Source: Lujinxingiaceae bacterium
GTDB taxonomy: Bacteria; Myxococcota_A; Bradymonadia; Bradymonadales; Bradymonadaceae
Reading direction: 5' to 3'
DNA: 64,000 nt
NCBI GenBank assembly: GCA_013697635.1
Contig: JACCWM010000198.1
Location: forward strand, 1-64,000
How positions within the stretch are numbered: position 1 is the first letter of the stretch; each line of letters begins with the position of its first letter. Below the pieces are notes generated by a model. It did not search any database and had not been told where the DNA came from. It was given only the letters and a program-made list of their open reading frames with translations. Of the stretch, positions 18,986 through 37,039 are shown one piece after another. Made by a program: the position numbers and the translations under genes.

Positions 18986-19232
18986 CACTCAAGCTTAATT
19001 TGGTCCATTGGTCAATTTTCACAACCCAAGTCGGTGGGAGACAAGAGCCTTGAAGGCTTTAGTAAACAAACTTGCCTGAGAGCTGCTTGCCTTTGGTTGG
19101 CCTGACCCGTGGCCTGGCCCGGACCAGCTCTGATCGCGTTTGGTGATCGAAACAGGTTTTCATTCGCAAGAAACCTGATAAGAATCGGTCCTGTTCACCT
19201 TACGCAACATCGGCTCGCTGGAGGCCTGCTTT

Positions 19233-20954
19233 ATGTCCCGTTCGCTCTTTTTTGGATCTGTACGACGCTTGCTGCAGACGGCCTGGACCTCGCAACGCAA
19301 CACGGCTTTGAATCGCGAGTTCCCCGATGGCGAGAATGAGCCATGGAGTCCTTCCCGCAGGGAGTTTTTGCAGACCTCGGCCGTGGTCAGCCTCGCCGCC
19401 TTCGTGCCGGCCGGGTTAGGAAGCGGTTGCGGGACGCCTTCCGATAGCGCGCTGCCAGAAAAGGCTCGAATCGCGATCGTCGGAGCGGGCATGGCCGGGC
19501 TGCACTGTGCCTACAGACTCAAGCAGGCCGGCGTGATTGCCAAGGTGTTTGAGGCCAACAATCGCGTGGGCGGACGCATGTTTACAGGCCGTGGGCTCTT
19601 TGCCGACGGCCAGGTCTGTGAGCTCGGTGGCGAGTTCATCGACTCCAACCATGTCGCGATGCGCGAGCTCGCGACCGAGTTCGCCATCACGATCGACGAT
19701 CTGACGGCTGGTGCATCGGCGGGCTTGATCGATGAGCTCTTCTACTTTGAGGGCCGCCAGATCCCGGAAGCAGAGATCGTCGCCGCATTCGAGCCACTGG
19801 CCGCGATCATGGCCACCACGGTGGAGGCGGCCGAAGCCGATGACGATGAGTTCGAGCGCATTGACGCGATGAGTATCGTGGAGTGGCTCGACGAGCAAAA
19901 CGCCGCTCCGATCCTCAAAAAGATTCTCATCGAAGCCTACATCGGCGAGTACGGCCTCGAGGCCGAAGAGCAGTCGGTGTTCAACTTGCTCTATCTGATC
20001 GACTACGAGGAGGCCGACCCCTTTCATATTTTCGGTGACAGCGACGAGCGCTACCACGTCCACACCGGCAGCGACACCTTGACCACGCGGCTGGCCGAAC
20101 GACTCGAAGGCCAGATCGAGCTCGAGTCGAAGCTGCTCGCCATTCGAGAGTTGCAATCCGGCGACTACGAGCTGAGCCTCAATCAAAGCGGCCAGACGAT
20201 CAAGGCGACCTTCGACCACGTCGTTTTGGCCATCCCCTTTACCACCCTTCGCCAGGTCACGCTCGACGTCGAGATGGACGACGACAAGCGCGAGGCGATC
20301 GATGAGATAGGCTATGGCACGAACGCCAAGTTGATGGGCGGATTTACGTCGAGGCTCTGGCGAGAGGATCACAACGCAAGCGGCTCGGTCTTCACCGACA
20401 ACGGCATTCAAAGCCTGTGGGACTCCAGCCGAGGCCAATCGGGCACCGCCGGCTTGCTGACAAACTACGTTGGCGGCAAGCTCGGTGAGGCGATCGGCGC
20501 GGGCACGCCCGAAGAGCGCATGGCCGAGTCGCTTGTCGGCATTGAAGACATATTTGCCGGCGCGGCCCAGGCTTATACCAAAGACAGCGCCGTGCGCATG
20601 CACTGGCCAACGGCGCCCTTTGCACTTGGCAGCTACACTTGCTACCGACCCGGGCAATGGATCTACTACGGTGAGGAGGGCCGCCGGGTCAAAAACCTTC
20701 ATTTCTGCGGCGAGCATTGCTCCCTTGATTTTCAAGGCTATATGGAAGGAGCTTGCGAGACCGGAGCCATGGTCGCCGCCGAGCTCCTCGATGACCTGGC
20801 CCTGCCCCTGCCTGCGGCCATGCACCGCACCCTGGAGCACAAGCTCGTGCTCCCCCAGGCGTGCTACCACGGCGATCAACACGACAAGCTTCGTCGTAAC
20901 CAACGTCGCCGGTTGTCGAGGCGACCGCGCACGGTGCTTGAGCCGGTGAGCTGA
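19233..20954 (+). CDS. Tat-exported lipoprotein flavin amine oxidase
   Basis: FAD-dependent monoamine/L-amino-acid oxidase family, 573 residues. An N-terminal extension of about 40 residues precedes the twin-arginine motif SRREFLQ and a hydrophobic segment ending in a lipobox (GSGC), so the folded flavoprotein is probably exported and lipid-anchored. FAD motifs are IVGAGMAGLHCAYRL and NRVGGRM at the start and QGYMEGACETGA near the end. The reaction would be oxidative deamination releasing H2O2 and ammonia outside the cytosol. The last 35 residues are unusually basic (KLRRNQRRRLSRR). GGAGG lies about 9 bases before the ATG. It is divergent from the LysR gene, its likely regulator, and converges with the kinase gene 15 bases downstream. 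Confidence 0.85.
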   Translation: MSRSLFFGSVRRLLQTAWTSQRNTALNREFPDGENEPWSPSRREFLQTSAVVSLAAFVPAGLGSGCGTPSDSALPEKARIAIVGAGMAGLHCAYRLKQAGVIAKVFEANNRVGGRMFTGRGLFADGQVCELGGEFIDSNHVAMRELATEFAITIDDLTAGASAGLIDELFYFEGRQIPEAEIVAAFEPLAAIMATTVEAAEADDDEFERIDAMSIVEWLDEQNAAPILKKILIEAYIGEYGLEAEEQSVFNLLYLIDYEEADPFHIFGDSDERYHVHTGSDTLTTRLAERLEGQIELESKLLAIRELQSGDYELSLNQSGQTIKATFDHVVLAIPFTTLRQVTLDVEMDDDKREAIDEIGYGTNAKLMGGFTSRLWREDHNASGSVFTDNGIQSLWDSSRGQSGTAGLLTNYVGGKLGEAIGAGTPEERMAESLVGIEDIFAGAAQAYTKDSAVRMHWPTAPFALGSYTCYRPGQWIYYGEEGRRVKNLHFCGEHCSLDFQGYMEGACETGAMVAAELLDDLALPLPAAMHRTLEHKLVLPQACYHGDQHDKLRRNQRRRLSRRPRTVLEPVS

Positions 20955-20969: not shown

Positions 20970-23024
20970 TCAGGCCACACTGTACGCGATGCTCGCGACC
21001 GCTTCTGTGGCCGGCTCGTCGAGAAGCGCGAAGTTTGGCAGCACGACGCGGCTTTGCGGCGCGCCTCGGGCTTCGAGCCAGGCGGCGTGAAGCTCACTGG
21101 CCATGCGCAGCAGTCGGTTTCCCAGCGTCGTGAGCTCGCGCTGGCGAGCGTCGTGGCGCGCAAGCTCCGAGCTCAGCGCGACCTTTTGCTCGATCAGACT
21201 CTGGATGAGCTGGCCATCCTCCAAGCGCGTGATCTGGGCGTCGAGCCGCGCGAGTTGCTCAAAGAGTGCGACATGTCCCTGCCCGTCTTGCTGGGCCTCG
21301 AGCTCGGCGATGCGCCGGGCGATCGCCGCCGCCTGATCAAAGAGGCCGCCGAGATCTCTTGCGGCCCAACCGTCGAAGTCGTCATGCGCCGCGCCCAGTT
21401 GGCGCATGGCGAGCAGAGTCAGGACGATGCGTTCATAGGTCTCGCGCACGCGGCTCGAGCGCAGGTGATGGTAGACCTCGACATGGTGGGCTTTGAGGTC
21501 GGGATCTTGAACCAGGTTCGCCACAGTGCGCTCAAAGGCTAGCAGGTAACTGTTTGGATCGGAGAGGCGCCGCCATGTGTTGTAGACGCTCAGCATGGCG
21601 AAGGCATTGAGCGCGAAGCCTGTGAGCAAGGCAGCGCAGATCATGACCAACCAGGTGGCGATCGATGCAGGAGCCCGAGCAAAACCGAACAAAAGAGAGA
21701 CGACCCCACCAAAGGTGAGCAAGGCCAAAATCCAGAGTTGTGTGCTCTCGGTTTGCCACCCGCCCCGACGCTTACCCGAGGTGAGCGCAGCCTTGAAGCA
21801 ACGGGCGAGCACCCCGGCCTTGCCAAGCTCGACGCGCATCGCCTCGGCCGTCTCCTGATTCATGCCACAGGCCAGGGCGATGACGAAGTGTCGGTACTCG
21901 TAGTGCAAGTTCTTGTTCAGGGTGCTGTTTTGATCCTCGAGCTCGAGCTGGGAAACACGCAAATGAGCCGAGTGGCCGCGCAAGACGGCCTGGATCGCTT
22001 CGCGTTGAGAGGGGCCAAGCTCGCTGGGCAAGTTGTATTGGCGCTGAATAGCCAATTTCTTGGCATTGTCGAATAAGTTGACGTCGCGCGGTAGGTAGAG
22101 ATGCCAATTGTAGTCGTCGTCGACTTCGACATCGGGGCGATGCTGGTCTTTGAGATCGTCCCAGAGCGCAAGGCGCTCTGGGCGAAGCTGGGCGCCGTGC
22201 GTGTCGCCAAGCAAGGCCCGGCGCATTTGAGCGGCGCTCTCGAAGCGGTCCTGGGGATCTTTGGCCATGGCGCGGCTGATGACGTCAGCGATGTTTTGAG
22301 GCACGCGGCGAACCAGCACCCGCACGTCGGGCACGGGGGCCTCGCGGTGCATGCGGATCACCGAGGCCGCCGTCTCCCCACGGTAGGGAAGACTGGCGCT
22401 GAGCATCTCGAAGAGGGTTACGGCCAGACTGTACAGATCGGCACGCGCATCGACGGCGAAGTCGTCGAACTGCTCGGGGGCGCTGTACTCGACGGTGCCC
22501 ATGGCCGTCTCCGGTCGCGACAGCGCTATCGCCTCGTCGAGCTCGGCCAGGCCAAAGTCGATCAGCTTGGCCACGCCGTCGTCGTCGAGCAGGATGTTGT
22601 GCGGCTTGATGTCCTGGTGAACGATGCCCTGGGCGTGGGCGGCCTCGAGGGCTGCGAGCACCTGGACGACGATCGCACGCGCCGCCTCCCAGCCCATGGG
22701 GCCGCCGCGCTGCAGGTGGACCTTGAGATCGCCCGTTCCGTGCAGATCCATCACCAGACCCAGCGCTTCGGGCGTGTCGATCAGGCTGTGAATGCGCACG
22801 ATATGGGGATGTTCGAGGCCCTGAACCCAGCCCACCTCCTGGCGAAAGCGCGAGACGACCAGCGGGTGCTCGCGCAGATGGGCGTGGAGAATCTTGAGGG
22901 CGACCTCGCGCTCGGTGAGAGCGTCGAAGGCGCGGTAAACCGTGGCCATGCCCCCGCGGCCCAGGATCTCTTTGAGCACAAAGCGCCCGTCGTGCAAAGT
23001 CGTCGCCGTGATGAGCTCGCTCAT
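20970..23024 (-). CDS. Membrane-anchored Ser/Thr protein kinase with HQD catalytic loop
   Basis: Hanks-type kinase of 684 residues. The kinase domain (residues about 14-275) has GRGGMATVY, VALK (K44), E63, HQDIKPHN (D138, K140, N143) and DFG (156-158). The usual HRD Arg is Gln, so activation may not need activation-loop phosphorylation. Two transmembrane segments lie near residues 435-490, followed by a long helical C-terminal region to the end. Residues after the kinase domain resemble those of the pseudokinase encoded just upstream, so the two probably arose by duplication. The ATG overlaps the upstream stop in ATGA, a sign of translational coupling, and GAGGAG precedes it. It is last in the run that begins at 29676. 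Confidence 0.92.
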   Translation of the reverse strand: MSELITATTLHDGRFVLKEILGRGGMATVYRAFDALTEREVALKILHAHLREHPLVVSRFRQEVGWVQGLEHPHIVRIHSLIDTPEALGLVMDLHGTGDLKVHLQRGGPMGWEAARAIVVQVLAALEAAHAQGIVHQDIKPHNILLDDDGVAKLIDFGLAELDEAIALSRPETAMGTVEYSAPEQFDDFAVDARADLYSLAVTLFEMLSASLPYRGETAASVIRMHREAPVPDVRVLVRRVPQNIADVISRAMAKDPQDRFESAAQMRRALLGDTHGAQLRPERLALWDDLKDQHRPDVEVDDDYNWHLYLPRDVNLFDNAKKLAIQRQYNLPSELGPSQREAIQAVLRGHSAHLRVSQLELEDQNSTLNKNLHYEYRHFVIALACGMNQETAEAMRVELGKAGVLARCFKAALTSGKRRGGWQTESTQLWILALLTFGGVVSLLFGFARAPASIATWLVMICAALLTGFALNAFAMLSVYNTWRRLSDPNSYLLAFERTVANLVQDPDLKAHHVEVYHHLRSSRVRETYERIVLTLLAMRQLGAAHDDFDGWAARDLGGLFDQAAAIARRIAELEAQQDGQGHVALFEQLARLDAQITRLEDGQLIQSLIEQKVALSSELARHDARQRELTTLGNRLLRMASELHAAWLEARGAPQSRVVLPNFALLDEPATEAVASIAYSVA

Positions 23025-25114
23025 GCGCTCCTCACCAGCTCGAGCACTTCGTGCTGGGCTTCAAAGCGCGCACGCAGCGAGGCGATCTCTGCGCTGACCG
23101 ACTCGAGCGAGGGCAGCTCCTCGCCGCCAAACTCGGATTGCAAATCGAGCAGGGTGGCGCGCACGTGCAACAGGTGGCCCTGGATCAGGCTGCGCTCGTG
23201 GGTGGCGGCGTCGAGCGCGTCGAGGGCGTTGAGCAGCTCGACGCGCTGCTCGATCAAGGGCGCCATGGCCGCTGCATCGGTGATGGCCGCGATGCGCGCA
23301 TCGACGCTCTCTAGGGCGTCGAAGATCTGTGCCGTGTTGCGGTCTCTGGCGACCACCTCCATCGAGGAGAGACGCTCGAGCAGGGCGACAGTGTGCTCGA
23401 ACATCGGCTCGAGCGTCTCGCGCAGCGCTGCGGTGGGCACCCGTTTATCTCGAAACAGGCGCACGGTCAGCGCGAGCACGTCATGCAGCTCGCGCTGCAG
23501 GGCGGGTTGGCGCAGCTTGCCAAGAGCCTGGGAGACGCCCGCCGGCAGGATGTTCTCGGCGGCGAGCAGATCGATCGCGCTCAGCTCCGTGCCCAGAATT
23601 CGGGCCTTCTTGGGCGGCTCATCTTCTTCGATGCCCAGGCCGCTGATCTTGGCCTCGATGAACTTCGTCGCGCGGCGGCTCCAATAGGCGCCAACAAGAA
23701 ACGCCGTGATGAAACCGAGACCGGGCAAAAGCAGATTGTTTTCGACAGAGGCAGTGACGAGCATCGGCAAGAAGAGGGCGAGCGTTACCAAAAAATAGAA
23801 CACAACGATCGCGCCAAAGAAGATGGCGACCGGTGAAACGCTGCGCTGGCGGATAAAACGTCGCAGCGCCGAATCCTTGAGTGCTTCGCGCTGCACCCGG
23901 CAGGGCACCCCGCGCTGTTCGAGCTGAGCCTTGACCAGTGCGGCGTCGCTCTCGGTGAGCCCATTGATGAGCATGTAGGGCGGGTGCTCGTCGTTCCAGT
24001 TGGCTTGAAAAACCCGGCGCGTGTCGTCAAAGGAGAACATCAGCTCGTGCAGGGCTTTGACCTGGCGGTCCGCGAGCACCATCGGTTCGGTGTTGGCCTC
24101 GAACCACACCTCGCGCTTGAACGCCTGGTGGGGCGTAATGATGTGCAGCGCATGCTCGCCGCGCCCGGGCTCCTGGAGCAGCCGCTCAAAGGCGTGGCCG
24201 CAGTGCAAGCAGTGGCCAAGACCCTCGACGATCACGCGCTTGCAGGCCGGACACTCCGACGGCTCGCGCGCATCCCACTGGGCCCAGACCTCGACGTCGT
24301 AGTGGCCGTCGAGCGCCTCGCGCATCTGGCGAGCGGAGGCGAAGCGAAGCGCGGGGTCCGGGGCAAGCGCGCGGCAGATCGCGTGCACGAGACTGTCGGG
24401 CATGCCTTCGAGGCTGGCTTTGACGCCGTCGAGGTAGTCGGCGCGGCTTGCAAACGCCAGGCTCGAGCTCATGCGCCCATCGTGCAGGGGCGCGCCGGTG
24501 GCGAGCTCGAAGAGCATGGCGCCGGCCGAAAAAATGTCGGCGCGGGCATCGGCCTCAAGCCCCAGGATGCTCTCCGGGGCCATGGTCTCGAGCGCCCCCA
24601 AGACGCGGGTGTGCATCGTCAGCCCGACCAGCTCGTCGACGCGGGCCAGACCAAAGCCGATGATCTTGAGGGTGTCATCGGCGTCGACCAGCACGTTGGC
24701 GAGGCTCAAATCGCGGTGCCAGATGCCACGCTGATGGGCGTGCTCGAGGCCGTCGAGCAGCGCGCGTCCCAGGCGAACAACGCGCTCGGGGACCATGGCC
24801 CCCTCGTCGCGCACGAGCTCTTTGAGCGCGCGGCCTGGGGCATACTCCATGACGAGCGCCATGTGTTGCTCGGACTCGATCAGATCGTGCACGCGCACCA
24901 GCGCCGGGTGCACGAGACGCTGCACTGCAGCCATCTCCCGGCGAAAACGACGCACGACCGAGGCCTGTTCGCGCAGATGCGGCAGCAAGATCTTGAGCGC
25001 GACGGGTGTTTGCGTGCGTAGATCGCGGGCCAGGTAGACGCGCGAGAGCCGGCCCTGGCCAAGCAATCTCTCGGTCTGGAAGTACTCAACAAAAACGCCA
25101 AGGTCGTCGCTCAC
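23021..25114 (-). CDS. Membrane-anchored pseudokinase (GFG in place of DFG) with zinc ribbon
   Basis: Protein of about 697 residues with a Hanks kinase fold: LGQGRLSRVY, VALK (K41), HRD (133-135), then SLAN in place of KxxN, and GFG (153-155) in place of DFG. Loss of the metal-binding Asp and the catalytic-loop Lys suggests it is inactive or very weak. APE is intact. A four-Cys zinc ribbon (CPAC...CLHC) follows near residue 295, then about 100 residues, two transmembrane helices (about 420-475) and a helical C-terminus resembling that of the neighbouring kinase. I prefer GTG at 25114, because GGAG lies six bases upstream; a TTG at 25126 would add four residues. It could serve as an allosteric partner or scaffold for the kinase encoded next. 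Confidence 0.85.
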   Translation of the reverse strand: MSDDLGVFVEYFQTERLLGQGRLSRVYLARDLRTQTPVALKILLPHLREQASVVRRFRREMAAVQRLVHPALVRVHDLIESEQHMALVMEYAPGRALKELVRDEGAMVPERVVRLGRALLDGLEHAHQRGIWHRDLSLANVLVDADDTLKIIGFGLARVDELVGLTMHTRVLGALETMAPESILGLEADARADIFSAGAMLFELATGAPLHDGRMSSSLAFASRADYLDGVKASLEGMPDSLVHAICRALAPDPALRFASARQMREALDGHYDVEVWAQWDAREPSECPACKRVIVEGLGHCLHCGHAFERLLQEPGRGEHALHIITPHQAFKREVWFEANTEPMVLADRQVKALHELMFSFDDTRRVFQANWNDEHPPYMLINGLTESDAALVKAQLEQRGVPCRVQREALKDSALRRFIRQRSVSPVAIFFGAIVVFYFLVTLALFLPMLVTASVENNLLLPGLGFITAFLVGAYWSRRATKFIEAKISGLGIEEDEPPKKARILGTELSAIDLLAAENILPAGVSQALGKLRQPALQRELHDVLALTVRLFRDKRVPTAALRETLEPMFEHTVALLERLSSMEVVARDRNTAQIFDALESVDARIAAITDAAAMAPLIEQRVELLNALDALDAATHERSLIQGHLLHVRATLLDLQSEFGGEELPSLESVSAEIASLRARFEAQHEVLELVRSA

Positions 25115-25138
25115 ATACTGCTCCAAAACTCTCAGATC

Positions 25139-26380
25139 TCAGGAAGGATCGTAGACCTGGCCCATGAAGAGCACTGCACCTGTGGTTGTATCGCGCAAAA
25201 AGAAGGCAAACGGTCGGTCGATGGTGATCTCGACGATCTTCGAGGGCGCGCTTTCGAGCCCGATGACGGCTGCCGTCGCCGCGGCGGCCTCCGTGCCGCG
25301 CTCGTCGATGGTGATCGTGGCCTCGTGCACGAACTCGCTGATGAACAAGCGAGCGTCGCGCGTTATCGGTGAGAAGTCGGCCTGATCTGGATCAAAAGCG
25401 AGCGCCATGCCCATCGCGATCAGAGGCTCATTGAGACGGATCGGGCTTCGAACCTCGAAGCGAGGCAATCCGAGCGCGACCTCACCAGCCTCGAGTCCGG
25501 CGGCGAGCGTGCTGAGGCTGGCCGGAGTCAGCTCACCGAGTAGATCGACCGGCGAGCCTTGCTTGGGCATAACCACGAGCATCGTGACACTGGAGTTAGC
25601 ATAAGGCAGCTCGACGACATCGTGCGCTTTGCTGCGCGCGTGGCGAAGCCTGCTTTGCTGGTGCATCATGGGCACCTCGATCGGGCCTCGAGCCGGCGCG
25701 TGAAAGCTCTGCGTGCGCGTGCGCTCCTCAGAGAAGGGATTTGCCCACGAACCTTTGAAATACAGCGCGTTGACCAGCACGAGGCGCGTCGTCGGGCGAA
25801 TGATGCCCGAGGGCAACAGGTCGCTGATCAGCTCGCGCGTTCGCGCCTCGACCCAACTGTTGATCAGCTGGCGCGACTCTTCCGGGCTGGCCACAAAATC
25901 GACCGAGCGCATCTCGGAGCGATAGGTTTGCTCGATGGTTTGGAGAAAGTCGACGCCCGTGGACAGGCCCATCTGAACCCACATCGAGTTCGCCAGCAGC
26001 AGCGTCGGATCCGTGTCTTTCTCGCCCTCGACCTGCAGGCTTTGGACCAGCGCTCCGTAGTGGGCGTGGACCTGAGCGCCGCCACTGCTTCGCATGGCTT
26101 GCGCGATGCCATCGGCCGTCTCATGGCGCGCGCCGGCGTAACTCATGCCAAGCGCCAGGGAAATACTGAGCGGCGAGTAGACGAGGTTTTGATTCCCTGC
26201 GCCGAGGTGGCCGTAGAGGTCGAGGCCGAGCGCGGAATTGGCGCTCACGACATCGGCGTGCATCGTGGGGCCGCCCGGCCTGTCCGGTGGCGCCTGGCCC
26301 GTACGACAGCCAGCAGCAGTGATGAGCAGACTGAGCAGCGCCGCCGCAGAGATGAGCGCGAAGGCTCTGTATTTGAGCAT
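25139..26380 (-). CDS. Serpin-family protease inhibitor, lipoprotein
   Basis: A full-length serpin of 413 residues with a signal peptide and lipobox (AAGC, Cys 25), so anchored to a membrane facing outside the cytosol. Serpin hallmarks are present: YSPLSISLALGMSYAGA, LVLVNALYFKGSWANPF, and the reactive-centre-loop hinge ERGTEAAAAT, which matches the inhibitory consensus (Gly P15, Thr P14, Ala P12-P9). Counting from the hinge puts P1 at Glu and P1' at Ser (GLESAP), which would favour a Glu-specific protease. The end carries the usual DRPFAFFLRD. It starts 12 bases after the DUF1552-type stop and ends 24 bases before the pseudokinase start. Bacterial serpins are uncommon, and this context is unusual. 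Confidence 0.93.
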   Translation of the reverse strand: MLKYRAFALISAAALLSLLITAAGCRTGQAPPDRPGGPTMHADVVSANSALGLDLYGHLGAGNQNLVYSPLSISLALGMSYAGARHETADGIAQAMRSSGGAQVHAHYGALVQSLQVEGEKDTDPTLLLANSMWVQMGLSTGVDFLQTIEQTYRSEMRSVDFVASPEESRQLINSWVEARTRELISDLLPSGIIRPTTRLVLVNALYFKGSWANPFSEERTRTQSFHAPARGPIEVPMMHQQSRLRHARSKAHDVVELPYANSSVTMLVVMPKQGSPVDLLGELTPASLSTLAAGLEAGEVALGLPRFEVRSPIRLNEPLIAMGMALAFDPDQADFSPITRDARLFISEFVHEATITIDERGTEAAAATAAVIGLESAPSKIVEITIDRPFAFFLRDTTTGAVLFMGQVYDPS

Positions 26381-26392
26381 GGATGCGATGGG

Positions 26393-27865
26393 CTAGGCCT
26401 TGATGCCGGGGATCTCGCCGCCAGCAGGCTTATTGTGATTGAGCCCGCCCTTGTGGCCAAAATCATCGATGAGCGAGCCGTCGTCTTTGCGAACGCCCAC
26501 GGCGTTGAGGATCGTGTTGAAGAGCTGATTGTGGGGCACGAAGCCGCCCGAGGCCGTGGTGCCGGTTGCCCGAGCATCGACGTAGACGCCTTGCTTGAGG
26601 TAGCCGCCGCCGCTGCCGGCGATCACCATCGGCAAGTTCGAGTAGCCGTGAGCAATGCCGTTGGCCAGATCGTTGGTCCAAAGCGCGACGGTGTCGTCGA
26701 GCACCTGGTATTCTTCGAGGCGCTCGATCAGGTATTTGAACCAGCGCGCGTGAATGCGGTCGATCTGATGGTGCTTGTGGGCGGCGTTTTCGATCGCTGC
26801 ACCTTCGGCGCCGTCGCTTTGGATGCGATGCGAAATCCAATGGAACTGAAAGCGCGAGCCGGTGGTCTCGTAGGTGGTGTGGTCGTTGCCGTTGCCGATC
26901 TGGAGGGTGGCCGCGCGCTTAAGATCGCAGGAAAACGCCAGCGCCGTGATGTCCATCATCATGTAGAGCATTTGCTGGGCGCGATTGGCGTCGCGCCATT
27001 CACCGGAGGCGCCGGTGGCCTCAATCGACTTCCAATCGGTCTCGGGCAAATGGCAGGCGAGCATGCGCTCCTCGAGCTCGCGAATCGAGTTCTGGTGCAG
27101 ATCAAGGCGCGAGCGATCGGCCGTGCTCAACGCCGTCTTGCGGCGCAGGCTCTCGAATTGCTCACGAAGCAGATCGTTGACGCTCTTTCGCTGGGTGACG
27201 ACCTGGTTATACAAAAGATCGTCACGGGTGTCGTCGGGATGACCGAAGAGCGATTTGTAGACCTCCCAGGGATTGCGCTCGGCGGCGCGAAGGCGCGCGT
27301 TGGTCTCGCCGGGCAGCGGCGGTGCATAGGAGAGCACCTCGTTCAAGTAGCTGCTGGTGAATCCGCCAAGCAGCGTGAGCGGCTCAGGGTTGTTGGGATT
27401 CATCTTGCGCTCGATCAAATAATCGATCGATTCGCCCGTGGCCAAGGAGCGGTTGACCGCCGGATACTCCGAGGGAGGTGTGGCGGTCAGACACTGGTTG
27501 CCACCACCGGAGTGACCACAGCCGTTGCCAGGAAAAGTGTAGCGCGTGCCGTCGACGATGAGCAGCTTGTCGGCGTGATCGGCAAGCTCGCCTACCGCGC
27601 GCATGTCGCCCTGAGCGTCCACTCTTTGCAGCATTTGCTTTGTGAGCTGGCCGCGCTCAAAGGGCCAAAAGCGCTCCGGCTCGTTGCTGGTCGCTTGCTG
27701 GACGCCGTTGCCGCTTCGAAGGCAGACGAAGTAGACCGGAGGTTTATTGTTGGCGTAGGCCGGATTGGCGTGAATCAGGCCTTCGAGAAAAGGCAGAGCC
27801 ATGACGACGCCAGCGCTGCCGCGCAAAAAAGTGCGGCGGTTCATCGGGGCTTTCCACTTTTTCAT
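26393..27865 (-). CDS. DUF1552-family Tat-exported protein
   Basis: Uncharacterised exported protein of 490 residues. The N-terminus has a twin-arginine motif (NRRTFLRG) followed by a hydrophobic stretch (GVVMALPFLEGL). Conserved-looking blocks are YFVCLRSGNGV, GNGCGHSGGGNQCLT, ERNPWEVYKSLFG and HARWFKYLIERL. DUF1552 proteins in myxobacteria and planctomycetes are typically encoded beside DUF1592/1588-type proteins, as here. The start ATG overlaps the stop of the upstream partner by four bases and follows GAGGAGACAGA. It is closely related along its whole length to the protein at 33669-35225. Function unknown; the pairing suggests a joint role in the envelope. Confidence 0.88.
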   Translation of the reverse strand: MKKWKAPMNRRTFLRGSAGVVMALPFLEGLIHANPAYANNKPPVYFVCLRSGNGVQQATSNEPERFWPFERGQLTKQMLQRVDAQGDMRAVGELADHADKLLIVDGTRYTFPGNGCGHSGGGNQCLTATPPSEYPAVNRSLATGESIDYLIERKMNPNNPEPLTLLGGFTSSYLNEVLSYAPPLPGETNARLRAAERNPWEVYKSLFGHPDDTRDDLLYNQVVTQRKSVNDLLREQFESLRRKTALSTADRSRLDLHQNSIRELEERMLACHLPETDWKSIEATGASGEWRDANRAQQMLYMMMDITALAFSCDLKRAATLQIGNGNDHTTYETTGSRFQFHWISHRIQSDGAEGAAIENAAHKHHQIDRIHARWFKYLIERLEEYQVLDDTVALWTNDLANGIAHGYSNLPMVIAGSGGGYLKQGVYVDARATGTTASGGFVPHNQLFNTILNAVGVRKDDGSLIDDFGHKGGLNHNKPAGGEIPGIKA

Positions 27866-29676
27866 TCTGTCTCCTCGTTCAAAACGGTGGCGCGGGTTAC
27901 GAAGATGTCGTTGACGACGAGCAGAACCAATATATCGCGAATCTTGGCCAGGCCAGCCTCGGAGGCCTGACCGATGCGGGCGATGAGCGGCTCGTCTTTC
28001 TCGGTCGGAACGCGTCCGTAGGCGTACTCGAACCAGTGGCGCGTATAGCAATCGTGGGCGTTAGGGCTTTGAGCAACGAGCGTGCTGAACTCGACACCGT
28101 CCTGAAAGGGAAAGCTGCCGTGGCGAAAGTGCAAGACGCCGCTGGCATCGACCGGGTAGCCGTTCTCCATCTGCTGATAGCCGCCGATCGCATTGTAGTT
28201 CTCGAAGGCGAAGCCGGCCGGGTTGATGAAGACACCGTGGCAGGTGCCGCCGCAGCCTTTGGTGGCATCGGTGACGCGCTCACGATTGGTGTTTCCGACG
28301 ATCACGGGGGGCAGCTCGACCTCGTCAGGAATCGGCCCCAGATCCGTACACAAGACGTGCAGGTTGATGAAGACGCCGCGCTTGATCGAGTTTTGTTCAA
28401 AGGCCGTGGACTTGTAGGAGAGAAAACCCAGGCGCGTGAGCAGACCAGCACGCTCGTTGGGATCGAGATCGACGCGTTTGAACTCCTCGCTGAACTCGCC
28501 AGACAAGCCGTAGATCGCTGCAAGCGGCTCGTTGACGAAGCTGTGCGGCGAGAGATAGAGCGCCGAGATGTCACCGGCCTCGTCATCAAAGATGATGTCC
28601 TTGATGAAGAGCTCCATCTCCTTGCGCATGGCCTGGGCGACCTCAGCGTTGAACTCGGGGAAGAGATCAGCGTTTTTCTCCATGTCGCTGAACTTGTCCA
28701 GGAGCAAGAGCTGGTTGTGGAATTCGGCGACCATGTTCTGGGCACGCTCATCGTTGACCATGCGCCGCGCGTGCAGCTCAAGGCTCGCGCGGTTGTTGAG
28801 CTCGCCGGCTGCCGCCGCCGCAAAGAGGGTGTCGTCGGGCATCGTCGACCAGAGCCCGAAGGCAAGCTTCGAGGCACGCTCGTAGGCGTCAAGCGCGACA
28901 CGCGGCTGGGTCTGGGAGTGGGTGAGCTCGGTGCGGTAGAGAAAGCTCGGTGACTGCAAGAAGACGCGCAGCACGAGCTCGACGCCTTGCAAGAAGGCGT
29001 CGCCCTGGCCCATCTGCGAGGGCGCGCTCATGAAGAGGGCTAGGTGGCTTGCGAGCTCTTCGTCATCGAGTGGGCGACGGTAGGCACGCTGGCCAAATTC
29101 TTCGATGAAGGCGCGCGCGCGCGCCTCGAGCTCGTCGGGCGCGTTGGCGGGCATGATAAGCTCAAGCGCCTCAGGGCTTGAGGCGACCTCGCTTGCGAGC
29201 CTCTCGGCGGCCTCGCGGTAGTGCTCCCACAGGCGCGGGTTGACCTCGAGGATGTTGACGTTGTTGTCGAATATGCCAGCCGAGGGCGGGTCCGCAAGGA
29301 AATTGCCGGCCATCTCGGGCCGGACCGTGCGACGCAACAAATCGCGCACCGTGTTCTCCCACTGCTCATGGGTTAGACGCGTAAAGCGTGGCGGCGAGCT
29401 GGACAGGGGTTCGCGACAGGCAGGCCCCTCACAGGGCAAGTCCGGAAAATCCGGATTGACCGTGTGCACCGTATCTGGAGCAAAACCAGCGTCAGCGCTG
29501 CCGGTGTTGTTGCCGGTGTTGTTTCCGGTGTTGTTTCCGGAGTTGTTACCGGTGTTGTTGTTGGCTGGCTTTGGCGTCGTCGGACCATCGCCGTTGACGA
29601 TGGTCAAATCACCGTCGAGACATCCAACGCTCAACGCAAGGCCCAGCACCAAAATCAAGCTGAGGGTTTGTTTCAT
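27862..29676 (-). CDS. DUF1592/DUF1588-type lipoprotein with cytochrome-like CX3CH motif
   Basis: Lipoprotein of 604 residues (lipobox SVGC) with a low-complexity linker of (GNNT) repeats and then the domain series seen in DUF1587/1592/1588/1585 proteins. Landmarks are RLTHEQWENTVRDLL (first domain), RPLDDEEL, SPHSFVNEPLAAIYGL, CGGTCHGVFINPAGFAFENY and CYTRHWFEYAYGR. In the family the Cys-Cys-His region usually reads CxxCH, suggesting covalent haem; here it is CX3CH. I chose ATG 29676 (MKQTLS), seven bases after GAGAGG; the in-frame ATG at 29697 has no such site. A good promoter lies just upstream, so this is the first gene of the run DUF1592, DUF1552, serpin, pseudokinase, kinase. Confidence 0.88.
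   Translation of the reverse strand: MKQTLSLILVLGLALSVGCLDGDLTIVNGDGPTTPKPANNNTGNNSGNNTGNNTGNNTGSADAGFAPDTVHTVNPDFPDLPCEGPACREPLSSSPPRFTRLTHEQWENTVRDLLRRTVRPEMAGNFLADPPSAGIFDNNVNILEVNPRLWEHYREAAERLASEVASSPEALELIMPANAPDELEARARAFIEEFGQRAYRRPLDDEELASHLALFMSAPSQMGQGDAFLQGVELVLRVFLQSPSFLYRTELTHSQTQPRVALDAYERASKLAFGLWSTMPDDTLFAAAAAGELNNRASLELHARRMVNDERAQNMVAEFHNQLLLLDKFSDMEKNADLFPEFNAEVAQAMRKEMELFIKDIIFDDEAGDISALYLSPHSFVNEPLAAIYGLSGEFSEEFKRVDLDPNERAGLLTRLGFLSYKSTAFEQNSIKRGVFINLHVLCTDLGPIPDEVELPPVIVGNTNRERVTDATKGCGGTCHGVFINPAGFAFENYNAIGGYQQMENGYPVDASGVLHFRHGSFPFQDGVEFSTLVAQSPNAHDCYTRHWFEYAYGRVPTEKDEPLIARIGQASEAGLAKIRDILVLLVVNDIFVTRATVLNEETE
29501..29560 (-). repeat. Five 12-base repeats coding the Asn/Gly/Thr linker
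   Basis: Five in-frame copies of a unit near CCGGTGTTGTTT (plus-strand reading) encode the NNTG-type linker between lipid anchor and first domain of the DUF1592-type lipoprotein. The linker probably spaces the domains from the membrane. Copy number may vary between strains. Confidence 0.85.
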
Positions 29677-29711
29677 GTTGCCCTCTCGTGGGTTCATGTA
29701 GGTCGAGAGGG

Positions 29712-29740
29712 AGAATAGCGACCCGAGAACGACACGTCAA
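29712..29740 (-). promoter_or_regulatory. Sigma-70-like promoter of the DUF1592-serpin-kinase operon
   Basis: On the minus strand, TTGACG (29735-29740), a 17-base spacer and TATTCT (29712-29717). It lies 35 bases before the chosen start codon. The promoter of the second DUF1592 module (37011-37039) has the same -35, the same spacer length and a similar -10, and both continue into a CTCTC-rich leader. Confidence 0.6.
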
Positions 29741-29833: not shown

Positions 29834-30520
29834 TCAGAAGATTCCCTCCAGACCGGCGCCCGCGGAAAAGGGAATGCGAAAGATCAATCCGAGCGTCAGC
29901 GTCGTCAGGTTTCGGTCCGTCAACCACGCCCGCGAGCCCTCGAGCACCAGGCCCAACCCGAGCTCGCCATAGCTGTAGCTCGAGCCGCAGAAGGTCGAGG
30001 CCGAGAGCCGCCGGCCGCCGCGAACACCGGCCTCGCAGCCAGTCGTCGTCGCGTTGGTAAAGTCTACCACCTCGAACAACAAGCGCGCGCTGGCCGCCGG
30101 CCCGTGCGAATTGGCGCCGATCACCGATTGGTAATGGCCGCGAAAACCGCCGCCTACGCGCAGCGCTGAGTGCCTCCTATTCCAGATCATCAGTGGTGTC
30201 AGCCCCAACACGTCGATGAAGGCGCCGTGCACAAGCGCTGCGCTGGCCAGATGAAGCTCATAGCCAAGGCCGACATCGATCGGCCGATCGATCGTGTGCT
30301 CGATGAGCTGGAAGGGGTAGAGCCCGGCGCGAATGGGCAGGATGGTCTCGAGCTGACCATCGTTTTCGGGCGAGCCAGCGCGCATGCCCATGGTCACGTC
30401 AAGCGCGATGGGCGGCGTCACCCAGGCCACCGGCACACAGGCACTCAGCGAGAGGAGCAGGGTCGCAACGAGGACCAACTTCGATGAGATGTTCACAAAC
30501 TGCCTTTTGAAGTCGATCAA
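29834..30520 (-). CDS. Putative outer-membrane lipoprotein, unknown
   Basis: Protein of 228 residues with a signal peptide ending in a lipobox (LSAC). The mature part is rich in Gly, aromatic residues and alternating hydrophobics (GLGYELHL, RVGGGFRGHYQ, GELGLGLVLEG) and ends in a hydrophobic residue (GIF). This resembles a small beta-barrel, but the family is not recognised. Two Cys near residues 163 and 178 may form a disulfide. It begins 10 bases after the CAP-protein stop, so the two are probably cotranscribed. It ends 157 bases before the start codon of the DUF1592 operon, with that promoter in between. Confidence 0.6.
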   Translation of the reverse strand: MIDFKRQFVNISSKLVLVATLLLSLSACVPVAWVTPPIALDVTMGMRAGSPENDGQLETILPIRAGLYPFQLIEHTIDRPIDVGLGYELHLASAALVHGAFIDVLGLTPLMIWNRRHSALRVGGGFRGHYQSVIGANSHGPAASARLLFEVVDFTNATTTGCEAGVRGGRRLSASTFCGSSYSYGELGLGLVLEGSRAWLTDRNLTTLTLGLIFRIPFSAGAGLEGIF

Positions 30521-30530
30521 TCGGCCAAGA

Positions 30531-31208
30531 TCACGGCGTCATGAACAGCCCTGTCAGATAGTAGCCTTGTTCGGACCTGACGATGCCCAGGGCGCCATGG
30601 GTGATTTCCGGGGTAAGAATGTTCTTGCGGTGGCCGGGCGAATCCATCCAACCGCGATGAGCGAAGGCCATGTTGGGGGTCAGGGCGATGTTCTCGGCCG
30701 CCCTGTTAAAGCTCAAGCCGCGCGCCTTCATGCGGGTGAACGGATCTTGGCCATCGGGGCCGACGTGGTCGAAGTAGTTTTTGTCTTTCATGTCTTTGGA
30801 GTGGGCGCGGGCGACCCAGACCAGGCGCAAATCGCACTGCAGCGGCGCCAACTTGCGTTGCACGCGCTCGCAGTTGGCGAGGCGAAACATCAAGGTCTCG
30901 AAATCGTCGCCGCAGCGTTGGCCGCGATCCGCGCGCACCTCGGTCCATGTGCCGCGCGGCACATCTTCGGAATAGTCGCCGGCCAGTCCGCTGGCGTCGA
31001 TATCGTCGATCGTGCACTGCACGTTTTTCGAGCGGGCGGCCTCCTTCCAGTCGCCGCCGGTGGCTTCGCGGGCAATACCCTCGGGAACGCTGACCATGGT
31101 CGCGACCGGTTCGCCTCTCGAGCCACTCGTGCACGAAGCTGCGAGCAGGGCGGTGAGGACCCAAAAGAGCGTGCGAATAAAATGGGGCGATCGTCTGCGC
31201 GTTTTCAT
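30531..31208 (-). CDS. CAP/SCP-domain lipoprotein
   Basis: Secreted lipoprotein of 225 residues (lipobox LAASC, Cys 26) with a C-terminal CAP (cysteine-rich secretory, antigen 5, PR-1) domain. Visible motifs are RAHSKDMKDKNYFDHVG, ENIA and WMDSPGHRKNIL, which include the His and Glu residues of the CAP cavity. Bacterial CAP proteins are poorly understood; roles in envelope binding or proteolysis have been proposed. A Cys-containing stretch of about 80 residues separates the anchor from the domain. Start is ATG 31208 (MKTRRR) or ATG 31217. A palindromic hairpin (31263-31292) lies upstream. Confidence 0.85.
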   Translation of the reverse strand: MKTRRRSPHFIRTLFWVLTALLAASCTSGSRGEPVATMVSVPEGIAREATGGDWKEAARSKNVQCTIDDIDASGLAGDYSEDVPRGTWTEVRADRGQRCGDDFETLMFRLANCERVQRKLAPLQCDLRLVWVARAHSKDMKDKNYFDHVGPDGQDPFTRMKARGLSFNRAAENIALTPNMAFAHRGWMDSPGHRKNILTPEITHGALGIVRSEQGYYLTGLFMTP

Positions 31209-31262
31209 CGGGACCATTGTCGCGCAAACTCGGGCGCCTGCCAACTGGCGAGTCCGCAAACG

Positions 31263-31292
31263 CCGAAGGGCCGCATCAATGCGGCCCTTCGG
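31263..31292. terminator. Hairpin between M15 lipoprotein and CAP genes
   Basis: A 14-base perfect stem CCGAAGGGCCGCAT (31263-31276) with its complement (31279-31292) and a two-base centre. It lies 27 bases beyond the stop of the minus-strand M15 lipoprotein gene. No T-run follows, so it may be a terminator of lower efficiency or an mRNA end stabiliser. Confidence 0.55.
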
Positions 31293-31319
31293 GGGATGTC
31301 ACAAACTTTCAGGGAGCGC

Positions 31320-32933: not shown

Positions 32934-33115
32934 GGTCTCATCTCCTTGCTCAGGGGCTTGCGGTCCATCCGCGCCTACTGTGTGTTGATGTAGGTGCATG
33001 TCTGGTGCCAACATACCCCAGAAAGATGTAATCGACCGAAAATAGCCTCTTTCGCCCACCCATGGCCGGTTTGTCGCCCCAAAGTGCTCAGGAACGTGTG
33101 CCACATTGTCTCACC

Positions 33116-33668: not shown

Positions 33669-35225
33669 TTATGCCTTCATACCGGGGATCTCGCCGCCAG
33701 GCTGCTGGTTGCGCGTGTCGCTGCCTTTGTGGCCAAAATCATCGATCGGCGAGCCGTCGTCATTGCGTACGCCGACGGCGTTGAGGATGGTGTTGAAGAG
33801 CTGGTTGTTGGCCACAAAGCCGCGGGGAGGAAACTCGAGCGACGCCGGCGAGATGGTGGCCGTGGCGCGCGCATCGACGTAGACGCCTTGTTTGAGGTAG
33901 CCGCCGCCGCTGCCGGCGATGACGACCGGCAGGTTGTGGAAGGCGTGCATGCGTCCGGTGGCTACGTCGTTGGTCCACAGCGCGATGCTGTTATCGAGCA
34001 AGGTGCCCTGATCGGTGTCGTACTCGTCGAGGCGCTCAATCAGGTATTTGAACCAGCGCGCGTGAATGCGATCGATCTGGTAGTGCACATGGTCGGCGTT
34101 AGCGATCGGGTCGCCGTCGCCGCCGTCGCTCTGGATGCGGTGCGAGACCCAGTGAAACTGGTAGGCCGGGCCAGTGGTGTTGTAGGTCATGAAGTCGGCG
34201 CCGCTGCCGATCTGGATCGTGGCCGCGCGCTTGAGATCGCAGGCAAAGGCCAGGGCCGTGATGTCCATCATCATGTGCAAAATAGGCTCGGCGTTCGAGG
34301 CGTTTTGCCAGGCGTTGGAGTCACCGGCGGCCTCGATCGCCTTCCACTCGGCCTCGGGCAGATGGCAGGCGAGCATGCGCTCCTCGAGCTCGAAGATCGA
34401 GTTCTGGTAGAGATCGAGGCGCACGTGATCGGCCTGGCTCAGGCCGCTGTTGCGGCGAAGATCGCCGAGCTGGTCGCGCAGCAGGTCGTTGACGCTCTGG
34501 CGCTGCTTGACGATCTTGTTGAACATCAGGTCGTCATGCACATCGCTGGGATTGCCAAAGAGTGACTTGTAGATCTGCCACGGGTTGCGCTCGCTGACGC
34601 GAACGCGCGCCTTGAACTGGCCGGGCAGCGGGGGCGCATAGGAGATGATGTCGTCGATGAAGCCACCGATCACGCCGGCGGCCATCGTCAGCGGCTCAGC
34701 CACGTTGACGCCATTGGCGTTGATGCGTGGCTTCATTTTTTGCTCGATCACCCAGTCGACCGAGGGATCTGCCGGTCGCGACCTGCTGGCGTGGCCGTCG
34801 TCGTCGGGAAAAGGTGGCGAGGCGGTCAGGCACTGGTTGCCACCACCGGAGTGTCCGCAGCCGCGCCCTTCATAGGAGTAGCGGATGCCATCGACGATCA
34901 GCAGCTTGTCGCGGTGTGCGACGAGCTCACCGGTGGTTCGAATCTCGTTTTGCGCGTTGGTGCGAAGCATCATCTCTTGGGTGAGCGCACCGCGCTCAAA
35001 GGGCCAGAAGCGCTCCGGCTCAAACACCGGTGCGCCCATGGTCGGGTCGCAAAACTGGGCGACGCCGTTGCCGCTTCGCAAGCAGACGAAATAGACCGGA
35101 CGCTGGGTGTTTGCGAGCGCCGGCGATGTGCGCACCAGCCCCTCGAGAAACGGCAGAGCCATGACGACGCCGGCGCTGCCGCGCAAGAAGTTGCGACGGC
35201 TCATCGGGGCTTTCCACGTCTTCAT
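33669..35225 (-). CDS. DUF1552-family Tat-exported protein, second copy
   Basis: Protein of 518 residues, a close paralogue of the one at 26393-27865: the Tat motif SRRNFLRG, YFVCLRSGNGV, GRGCGHSGGGNQCLT, ERNPWQIYKSLFG and HARWFKYLIERL are all shared. It is 28 residues longer through small insertions in the first half and near the C-terminus. Its ATG overlaps the stop of the DUF1592-type gene by four bases, exactly as in the first module. The pair therefore duplicated as a unit. Confidence 0.88.
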   Translation of the reverse strand: MKTWKAPMSRRNFLRGSAGVVMALPFLEGLVRTSPALANTQRPVYFVCLRSGNGVAQFCDPTMGAPVFEPERFWPFERGALTQEMMLRTNAQNEIRTTGELVAHRDKLLIVDGIRYSYEGRGCGHSGGGNQCLTASPPFPDDDGHASRSRPADPSVDWVIEQKMKPRINANGVNVAEPLTMAAGVIGGFIDDIISYAPPLPGQFKARVRVSERNPWQIYKSLFGNPSDVHDDLMFNKIVKQRQSVNDLLRDQLGDLRRNSGLSQADHVRLDLYQNSIFELEERMLACHLPEAEWKAIEAAGDSNAWQNASNAEPILHMMMDITALAFACDLKRAATIQIGSGADFMTYNTTGPAYQFHWVSHRIQSDGGDGDPIANADHVHYQIDRIHARWFKYLIERLDEYDTDQGTLLDNSIALWTNDVATGRMHAFHNLPVVIAGSGGGYLKQGVYVDARATATISPASLEFPPRGFVANNQLFNTILNAVGVRNDDGSPIDDFGHKGSDTRNQQPGGEIPGMKA

Positions 35226-36979
35226 TCTGTCTCCTCGGTCGGTGCGCTCGAGCGGGTTACGAAGATATCGTTGACGACGAGCAGCACCAGCATGTCGCGA
35301 ATTTTGGCCAGGCCAGCCTCGGAGGCCTGGCTGATGCGCGCGATCAAAGGCTCGTCTTTGTCCGTCGGCGAGCGGCCATAGGCGAACTCGAACCAGTGGC
35401 GCGTGTAGCAGTCGTGCGCGTCCGGGCTTTGCGCGATCAGCGTGTTGAACTCGATGCTGTTTTGGAAGGGGAAGGTGCCATGGCGAAAGTGGAAGATGCC
35501 GGTGGCATCGACCGGATAGCCGTTCTCCACCTCCTGGTAGCGGCCCAGGGCGTTGTAGTTCTCAAAGGCGAAGCCTGCCGGGTTGATCAAGGAGTTATGG
35601 CAGGTGCCGCCGCAGCCGGCGGTGTTCGCCGTGATCCGCTCGCGATTGGTGTGGCCGCCGGCGCCCTCGGTCGAGCCGATATCGTCGGGGATCGTGCCCA
35701 GCTGATTGCACAACACGTGCAGATTGACGAAGACCCCGCGCTTGATCGAGCTCTGCTCGTAGGCGTTGGCGTGGGTCGACAAGAAACCCAGTCGCGTCAG
35801 CAGGCCGGCGCGCTCGCGGGGGTCGAGATCGACGCGTTTGAACTCCTCGTCGAACTCGCCGGGCAGACCGTAAATGGCGGCCAGCGGCGCGTTGACGAAG
35901 CTGTGCGGCGAGAGATAGAGCGCCGAGAGGTCGCCGGCCTCGTCCTCAAAGATGATGTCCTTGATGAAGAGCTCCATCTCCTTGCGCATGGCCTGGGCGA
36001 CGTCGGCGTTGAACTCGGGGAAGCGCTCGGCGTCCTTGGCGAGCTCGCGAAAGGCGTCAAAATGCAAGAGCTGGCTGTGAAAGTCGACGATGGTATCTTC
36101 GGCGCGCGCGTCGTTGATCATGCGCCGCGCATGGCGCTCGAGGCCGGCACGCTGATCGAGCTCACCGGCGGCGGCGGCCTCGAAGAGCAGGTCGTCAGGC
36201 ATCGTCGACCAGAGGCTAAAGGACAGCTTCGCGGCGCGCTCGTAGGCGTTGAGCGCGACGACCGGCGCGCTCTCGGAGTGGGTGAGCTCGGAGCGAAAGA
36301 CAAAATGCGGTGACTGCAAAAAGACGCGCAGCAAGAGCTCGACGCCCTGGACAAAAGCATCGCCCTCGCCCATGAGCTGCTCGGCCATCGCGAATATCTC
36401 CAGATGTCGCGCGATCTCGTCCTCGCCCAGCGGGCGGCGGTAGGCGCGCTTGCCGACGTGCTCGATGAATGCGCGAGCGCGTGCATCGAGCACGTCGGGC
36501 GCGTCGGCGGGCATGATGCGCGCCAGCGCCTCGGGGCTGGTGGCCACCTGGCGCGCGAGCGTCTCGGCGCCTACGCGGTAGGAATCCCAAAGGCTGGCGG
36601 TGAAATCGAGCGCGGCGCTGTTGTTGTTGAAGCTGCCGGCCGAGTCGGGATCGGGCAAAAAGTTGGTCGACAGGTTGGGACGCGCATCCAGGCGCAGCAG
36701 ATCGCGCATCGTGTTCTCCCACTGCTCGTGGGTCAGGCGGGTAAAGCGTGGCGGCGCACTGGGCTCGGGCGCGCGACAGGCCGCTCCCTCGCAGGGCAAA
36801 TCCGGAAAGTCCGGATTGATCGTCGGATCGATGTCGGCGCCAGCATCGGCGGTGCCCGGATCGACATGGGTATCGGGGCTCGTGCTCTCGTCCGGCGCAC
36901 GCACCGTCAGACTTCCGTCGAAACATCCGAGAATCAAGGTGGCGCACAGAGCGGCGAGCAGACCGAGGGTTCGTTTCAT
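35222..36979 (-). CDS. DUF1592/DUF1588-type lipoprotein, second copy
   Basis: Lipoprotein of 585 residues (lipobox LILGC). It shares the whole domain series with the protein at 27862-29676, including RLTHEQWENTMRDLL, SPHSFVNAPLAAIYGL, CGGTCHNSLINPAGFAFENY (the same CX3CH) and CYTRHWFEFAYGR. The linker after the anchor differs, being acidic and Thr/Pro-containing instead of GNNT repeats. ATG 36979 follows GAGAGGCATC, the same leader arrangement as in the first copy. A promoter with the same layout lies at 37011-37039. Confidence 0.88.
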   Translation of the reverse strand: MKRTLGLLAALCATLILGCFDGSLTVRAPDESTSPDTHVDPGTADAGADIDPTINPDFPDLPCEGAACRAPEPSAPPRFTRLTHEQWENTMRDLLRLDARPNLSTNFLPDPDSAGSFNNNSAALDFTASLWDSYRVGAETLARQVATSPEALARIMPADAPDVLDARARAFIEHVGKRAYRRPLGEDEIARHLEIFAMAEQLMGEGDAFVQGVELLLRVFLQSPHFVFRSELTHSESAPVVALNAYERAAKLSFSLWSTMPDDLLFEAAAAGELDQRAGLERHARRMINDARAEDTIVDFHSQLLHFDAFRELAKDAERFPEFNADVAQAMRKEMELFIKDIIFEDEAGDLSALYLSPHSFVNAPLAAIYGLPGEFDEEFKRVDLDPRERAGLLTRLGFLSTHANAYEQSSIKRGVFVNLHVLCNQLGTIPDDIGSTEGAGGHTNRERITANTAGCGGTCHNSLINPAGFAFENYNALGRYQEVENGYPVDATGIFHFRHGTFPFQNSIEFNTLIAQSPDAHDCYTRHWFEFAYGRSPTDKDEPLIARISQASEAGLAKIRDMLVLLVVNDIFVTRSSAPTEETE

Positions 36980-37010
36980 GATGCCTCTCGTGGGTTTTCT
37001 TTCGCATGAG

Positions 37011-37039
37011 AGGATAACGGGCCGGTTACAGCACGTCAA
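37011..37039 (-). promoter_or_regulatory. Sigma-70-like promoter of the second DUF1592/DUF1552 module
   Basis: On the minus strand, TTGACG (37034-37039), a 17-base spacer and TATCCT (37011-37016), 31 bases before the start codon. It matches the promoter at 29712-29740 in -35 sequence, spacing and leader. Confidence 0.6.

Follow-up and report, generated by a model that had tools for sequence, protein, structure and literature searches.

A conserved pseudokinase-kinase pair within a probably lineage-specific five-gene array of a Lujinxingiaceae bacterium

Background

STRAD-LKB1 and HER3-HER2 are eukaryotic pseudokinase-kinase pairs, in which a crippled kinase is combined with an active partner. 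The last two genes of the array described here, g4 (a predicted pseudokinase) and g5 (a predicted Ser/Thr kinase), resemble these pairs by analogy, in the logic of a pseudokinase with an active kinase; as pairs they are not homologous to them, being tandem bacterial paralogues with membrane hairpins. By sequence as well as fold, the closest solved kinase domains are those of the PknB/PASTA type (M. tuberculosis PknB, StkP, Stk1), from which the pair differs by the absence of a PASTA or other ectodomain, by a membrane hairpin with a cytoplasmic C-terminus, by a zinc ribbon and by the GFG motif of g4. Against the PASTA kinase model NF033483, which requires a PASTA ectodomain and has a whole-model cut-off of 450 bits, the two proteins reach only 271 and 211 bits, with the match confined to the kinase domain.

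Bacterial pseudokinases are largely uncharacterised, and the reviewed families comprise ActPs1-3/MviN, GLW, CP1, DYD and DLHK, besides EssB/YukC, SidJ and SelO (PMC12599244). Like g4, they have a kinase fold with lost catalytic motifs. In MviN, however, VAIK, HRD and DFG are all missing, unlike in g4, and DLHK, of which a Pseudomonas member reads GFG as g4 does, has helicase domains but neither the VAIK lysine nor transmembrane segments (PMC12599244). With its retained VALK and its membrane hairpin, g4 thus falls outside the DLHK family. None of the reviewed families is described as obligately partnered with an active paralogue encoded by an overlapping gene (PMC12599244), and our search of mainly open-access literature returned no report of a bacterial kinase and pseudokinase paired in this way. 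CASK, which like g4 has lost the DFG aspartate while keeping the VAIK lysine and HRD, is beyond the kinase fold unrelated to it.

As for the other genes of the array, the nearest solved structures to the serpin g3 are the Proteinase inhibitor I4 serpin 8gxv and conserpin; g3 shares the full-length Pfam match and the inhibitory hinge with the serpin family, differing by a lipoprotein-like signal and by genomic neighbours that vary between genomes. No solved relative of DUF1552 was found by sequence, DUF1592 and DUF1552 receive only passing mentions in the literature, and a search for published serpin-kinase operons found none.

Organisation of the locus

The window (the whole stretch analysed, i.e. 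the first 64,000 nucleotides of contig JACCWM010000198.1) carries five open reading frames, g1 to g5, all on the minus strand (Table 1). The first-pass annotation had described them as a tightly spaced unit behind one promoter, encoding a DUF1592 protein, a DUF1552 protein, a serpin, a pseudokinase and a kinase, and this description of the layout holds. Reading frames and Pfam confirm the gene calls and families: PSD2/3/4/5 and PSCyt3 in g1, HXXSHH (DUF1552) in g2, Serpin in g3 (E 3e-106) and Pkinase in both g4 and g5. The spacing is indeed -4, 12, 24 and -4 bases, with an ATGA overlap at the g1/g2 junction as well; the 24-base gap between g3 and g4 assumes the best start of g4 (GTG 25114, with a GGAG Shine-Dalgarno sequence 6 bases upstream) instead of the alternative TTG 25126. 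Within the 9.3 kb scanned, the promoter-like site directly before g1 is the only sigma-70-like one. This number equals the chance expectation for the region (~1.1 sites), yet the position fits a promoter of g1. The array is bounded downstream by a convergent amine oxidase gene (19182-20951, plus strand), and its base composition is uniform. The five genes are probably co-transcribed in the window organism.

Table 1 Features of the array and its surroundings (window positions)
Feature	Position	Strand	Remarks
g1, DUF1587/1595/1592/1588/1585 protein	27862..29676 (start 29676 or 29697)	-	Signal peptide, CX3CH heme-like motif
g2, DUF1552 (HXXSHH) protein	26393..27865	-	Twin-arginine-like signal
g3, serpin	25139..26380	-	Lipoprotein-like signal, inhibitory hinge ERGTEAAAATAAVIGLE/SAPSKI
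g4, predicted pseudokinase	23021..25114	-	VALK and HRD kept; DFG replaced by GFG
g5, predicted Ser/Thr kinase	20970..23024	-	VALK, D of H(Q)D, DFG and GTVEYxAPE intact
ATGA stop/start overlap of g4 and g5	23021..23024	-	4 bases; equal overlap at all complete junctions of relatives
Promoter-like site TTGACG-17-TATTCT	29712..29740	-	Directly before g1
Second DUF1592-DUF1552 pair	33669..37039	-	DUF1552 67% identical to g2

The DUF1592-DUF1552 pair and the serpin

The succession of a PSD2-5/PSCyt3 protein and an HXXSHH protein, as in g1-g2, recurs in relatives and several times within the window genome itself. DUF1552 genes are present in 15 of the 21 family genomes, the closest one outside the window genome (63% identity) being that of the single-contig genome G005. 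No serpin or kinase gene lies downstream of the second pair in the window, nor was a serpin or a homologue of g4 or g5 seen near the other DUF loci read in relatives. The g1-g2 genes are best read as an exported DUF1592-DUF1552 pair and as a module independent of the serpin and the kinase pair.

The subgroup to which g1 belongs has a CX3CH motif (CGGTCH or CGGACH; window 27862-29676 and 35222-37039, and L157 10801-12720 of G005), as opposed to the usual CX2CH heme motif in nine other DUF1592 members checked. In G005, a deoxyhypusine-synthase-like gene (L157 8254-9306) lies 13 bases downstream of the DUF1552 orthologue. Between the two pairs of the window (29834-33104), genes for a VanY-type peptidase, a CAP-domain protein and an unknown protein are found, all on the minus strand.

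The first-pass annotation had also taken g3 for an inhibitory-type, lipid-anchored serpin, and this is supported by the sequence: the PF00079 match spans positions 2-370 of 370, the small-residue hinge reads ERGTEAAAAT and the signal is lipoprotein-like, so that g3 is a putative inhibitory serpin. It is one of three serpins in the window genome and belongs to a multi-copy family, serpins being present in 19 of the 21 family genomes. The closest ones (46-51% identity; G008, G002 and G011) have different neighbours, e.g. CbiM in G002. In G007 (L058 5781-13034), five serpin genes stand in tandem, and their residues past the common hinge differ.

The supported serpin clade nearest to g3 occurs in 4 of the 8 genomes that bear the kinase pair versus 0 of the 13 other family genomes (Fisher p ~0.012, phylogeny being ignored). 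This co-occurrence is the one observation by which a functional connection between serpin and kinases stays conceivable, although shared ancestry explains it equally well. The serpin itself would guard the bacterial envelope against proteases, independently of the kinase pair.

The pseudokinase-kinase pair

The pairing of a pseudokinase with an active kinase, also put forward in the first-pass annotation, is borne out at the level of sequence motifs. The kinase g5 keeps the canonical residues (VALK, HQD, DFG and GTVEYSAPE), whereas g4 has lost the DFG aspartate, with GFG in 13 of 13 homologues, and is therefore a predicted pseudokinase by the loss of at least one key VAIK/HRD/DFG residue. In 12 of the 13, the asparagine of HRDxxxxN is replaced by histidine as well; the window g4, which is the first branch within the g4 clade, retains it. 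Every homologue with sequence covering the VAIK lysine and HRD has kept them, and nearly all g4 have both together with the alpha-C glutamate. The full support of the g4 clade (100/100) is consistent with a single loss.

From its N-terminus, g4 consists of the pseudokinase domain, a zinc ribbon (CPAC...CLHC), a small alpha/beta linker domain, a two-helix membrane hairpin at about residues 435-480 and a cytoplasmic helical C-terminus. The best conserved part is the activation segment (VDEL..LTMHT..LG.LE.MAPE, with TMHT nearly invariant), which has 92% mean column identity versus 29-71% elsewhere (29% in the membrane hairpin, 47% in the C-terminus). The AlphaFold model of g4 shows two adjacent membrane helices and is of moderate quality (mean pLDDT 70, below 50 in the activation segment), and for that reason no claim is made to rest on its details.

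In g5, the kinase domain is followed by a membrane hairpin and a helical C-terminus, the latter homologous to the C-terminus of g4. The two proteins are full-length paralogues, of which the C-terminal halves find each other with E ~1e-4. The zinc ribbon, present in 11 of 11 aligned g4, was found in none of the g5 checked, which keep DFG and GTVEYMAPE and have lost T-x-H-T, often with acidic residues in its place. The catalytic loop of the window g5 reads HQD instead of HRD (22600-22620), in contrast to its relatives. Since the window g5 is only ~27-33% identical to other g5 and is not firmly grouped with them in the tree (an open fork), the case for orthology of the pair is better for g4 than for g5. 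In both proteins, a single hydrophobic hairpin lies at approximately residues 430-480, the C-termini look cytoplasmic, and no sizeable extracytoplasmic domain was found in either. With the serpin presumably outside the cytoplasm and the kinases devoid of an ectodomain, direct contact between serpin and kinase domains is unlikely.

In five other genomes (G002, G011, G014, G017 and G019), a g4 homologue lies directly upstream of a g5 homologue, as repeated pairs. The pair has been duplicated as a unit, several pairs being present in G019 and G017, and the 4-base overlap is found at 6 of 6 complete junctions (the window and five others). In G008 the two halves are on separate short contigs, and in G020 g4 is truncated by the contig end. 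Judged by this same gene order and exact overlap, the pseudokinase-kinase pair is the one conserved functional unit of the array.

Two arrangements of these genes stand out. A contig of G002 (C419, L084) carries an alternating pseudokinase-kinase-pseudokinase-kinase tandem array of overlapping genes in one direction, and in G017 (C308, L087) a g5-type kinase domain seems to be joined to a frame-broken g4-type C-terminus, either as a chimera or pseudogene or through an assembly fault.

Among 379 surveyed genomes of the phylum, full-length g4 homologues were limited to the order of the window. The same held when 84,980 species were scanned for a pattern based on the g4 alignment, all full-length matches being in soda-lake sediment bins named Myxococcales; a GTDB contig search with g4 alone as the query returned no match. 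Similarly named CSSed bins have been assigned to the Bradymonadales, which are predatory bacteria (PMC7460792).

Assembly of the array

Outside the window, the modules of the array are found apart. Among the 21 family genomes, the window is the only place with a serpin less than 20 kb from a DUF1552 gene; the next closest such genes are ~24 and ~39 kb apart. Beside the kinase pair, the stretches fetched from relatives contain neither serpins nor DUF genes, and the genes upstream of the pair encode a rhomboid protein, HMG-CoA reductase, a Mur ligase and others; many of these loci are short contigs of draft bins, the upstream sequence being shorter than 3 kb at about half of the pair loci, while six offer 2.7-15.6 kb. 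As the modules are apart in relatives, the array seems to be a lineage-specific joining of three of them, i.e. the DUF1592-DUF1552 pair, a serpin of a multi-copy family and the pseudokinase-kinase pair, of which the last constitutes a split kinase; we give this reading a probability of roughly 0.7.

The first-pass annotation had instead offered, as one model for the five genes, a surface complex in which proteolysis, sensed or blocked by the serpin, is linked across the membrane to phosphorylation inside the cell. The tight co-directional spacing and the single promoter-like site in the window genome speak for it, as does the occurrence of the nearest serpins in genomes that also bear the kinase pair. 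The combination is, however, missing from all other genomes surveyed, no DUF1552 match turned up in five g4-bearing genomes (G002, G014, G017, G019 and G020), and the kinases have no ectodomain of any size with which to touch a surface serpin. Serpins, DUF pairs and the kinase pair sit in unrelated places in relatives, so that on synteny a conserved five-gene system was rejected, and we regard it as very improbable. The proposed serpin/pseudokinase/kinase triplet fares no better. It was seen in no relative, including the six pair loci with 2.7-15.6 kb upstream, let alone always behind a DUF1592-DUF1552 pair, and the closest DUF pairs have neither serpin nor kinases behind them. Ordinary kinases do occur close to a serpin in some relatives, a few kb away (L069, L072, L075, L090 and L091), but no common arrangement was seen and each of these genomes holds roughly a hundred kinase candidates. 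It could also be that serpin and kinase pair were recruited behind the DUF pair as a local operon, co-expressed for a shared envelope or predation role without forming a conserved complex. The short gaps, the good ribosome-binding site of g4 and the uniform composition would fit this, but the arrangement is known from a single genome and we consider this explanation rather unlikely.

Origin and possible working of the pair

Two order-level relatives (G023 and G025) possess a single intact kinase with a zinc ribbon, a membrane hairpin and a helical C-terminus, which reads DFGLARVDDL.SVTTHT.TLGTPEYMAPE. Together with the distribution of motifs over g4 and g5, this suggests that the pair arose by duplication of a zinc-ribbon kinase followed by complementary degeneration. 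The ancestor would have been a membrane-hairpin, zinc-ribbon Ser/Thr kinase, of which the g4 copy lost catalysis (the DFG aspartate and, later in the relatives, the HRDxxxxN asparagine) while retaining the zinc ribbon and the TMHT activation segment, and the g5 copy lost the latter two while retaining catalysis. We infer the direction to be from the single intact form to the split pair, on a tree that is not firmly rooted. In G020 (L144 5406-9062), a fused protein of 1219 residues contains two intact tandem kinases, each with a zinc ribbon and a membrane hairpin.

It is likely that g4 regulates g5 or is phosphorylated by it. The two proteins may form a co-translated membrane heteromer, the synthesis of which would be kept in step by the overlap of the genes, with g5 as the catalytic subunit and g4 as an allosteric or input-sensing partner (the zinc ribbon being the input) and probably as a substrate of g5 at TMHT. 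This TMHT would then serve as a phospho-acceptor loop replacing the one lost from g5. That the split kinase is an obligate, translationally coupled heteromer, in which trans-phosphorylation of the pseudokinase at TMHT replaces control by a cis activation loop, is put forward as a tentative model.

The retained VAIK lysine, alpha-C glutamate and HRD, and the loss of both metal-binding residues in the relatives, would also be compatible with g4 being an atypical, magnesium-independent kinase similar to CASK, of which the phosphoryl transfer is cation-independent (PMC4718504). However, g4 no longer has the HRDxK lysine or the P+1 loop residues GTxxY, and its glycine loop is left with a single conserved glycine, where an intact glycine loop is a predictor of activity (PMC4718504); residual activity of this type is therefore improbable. 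Least probable of all is that g4 is a decaying copy without function. Its catalytic residues have been lost, but its reading frames are intact in many divergent copies, the pair has repeatedly been duplicated together with its 4-base overlap, and the conservation of the activation segment rules out a functionless pseudogene.

Conclusions

The array illustrates that operon-like tight spacing in a single genome does not amount to proof of a conserved system. For the kinases, the likely ancestral single kinase, a fusion of two kinases and the split pair, in which catalytic residues are lost by degrees, occur together in one order, and with all these forms at hand the origin of a pseudokinase, and its takeover of the regulation of its active sister, become directly testable.
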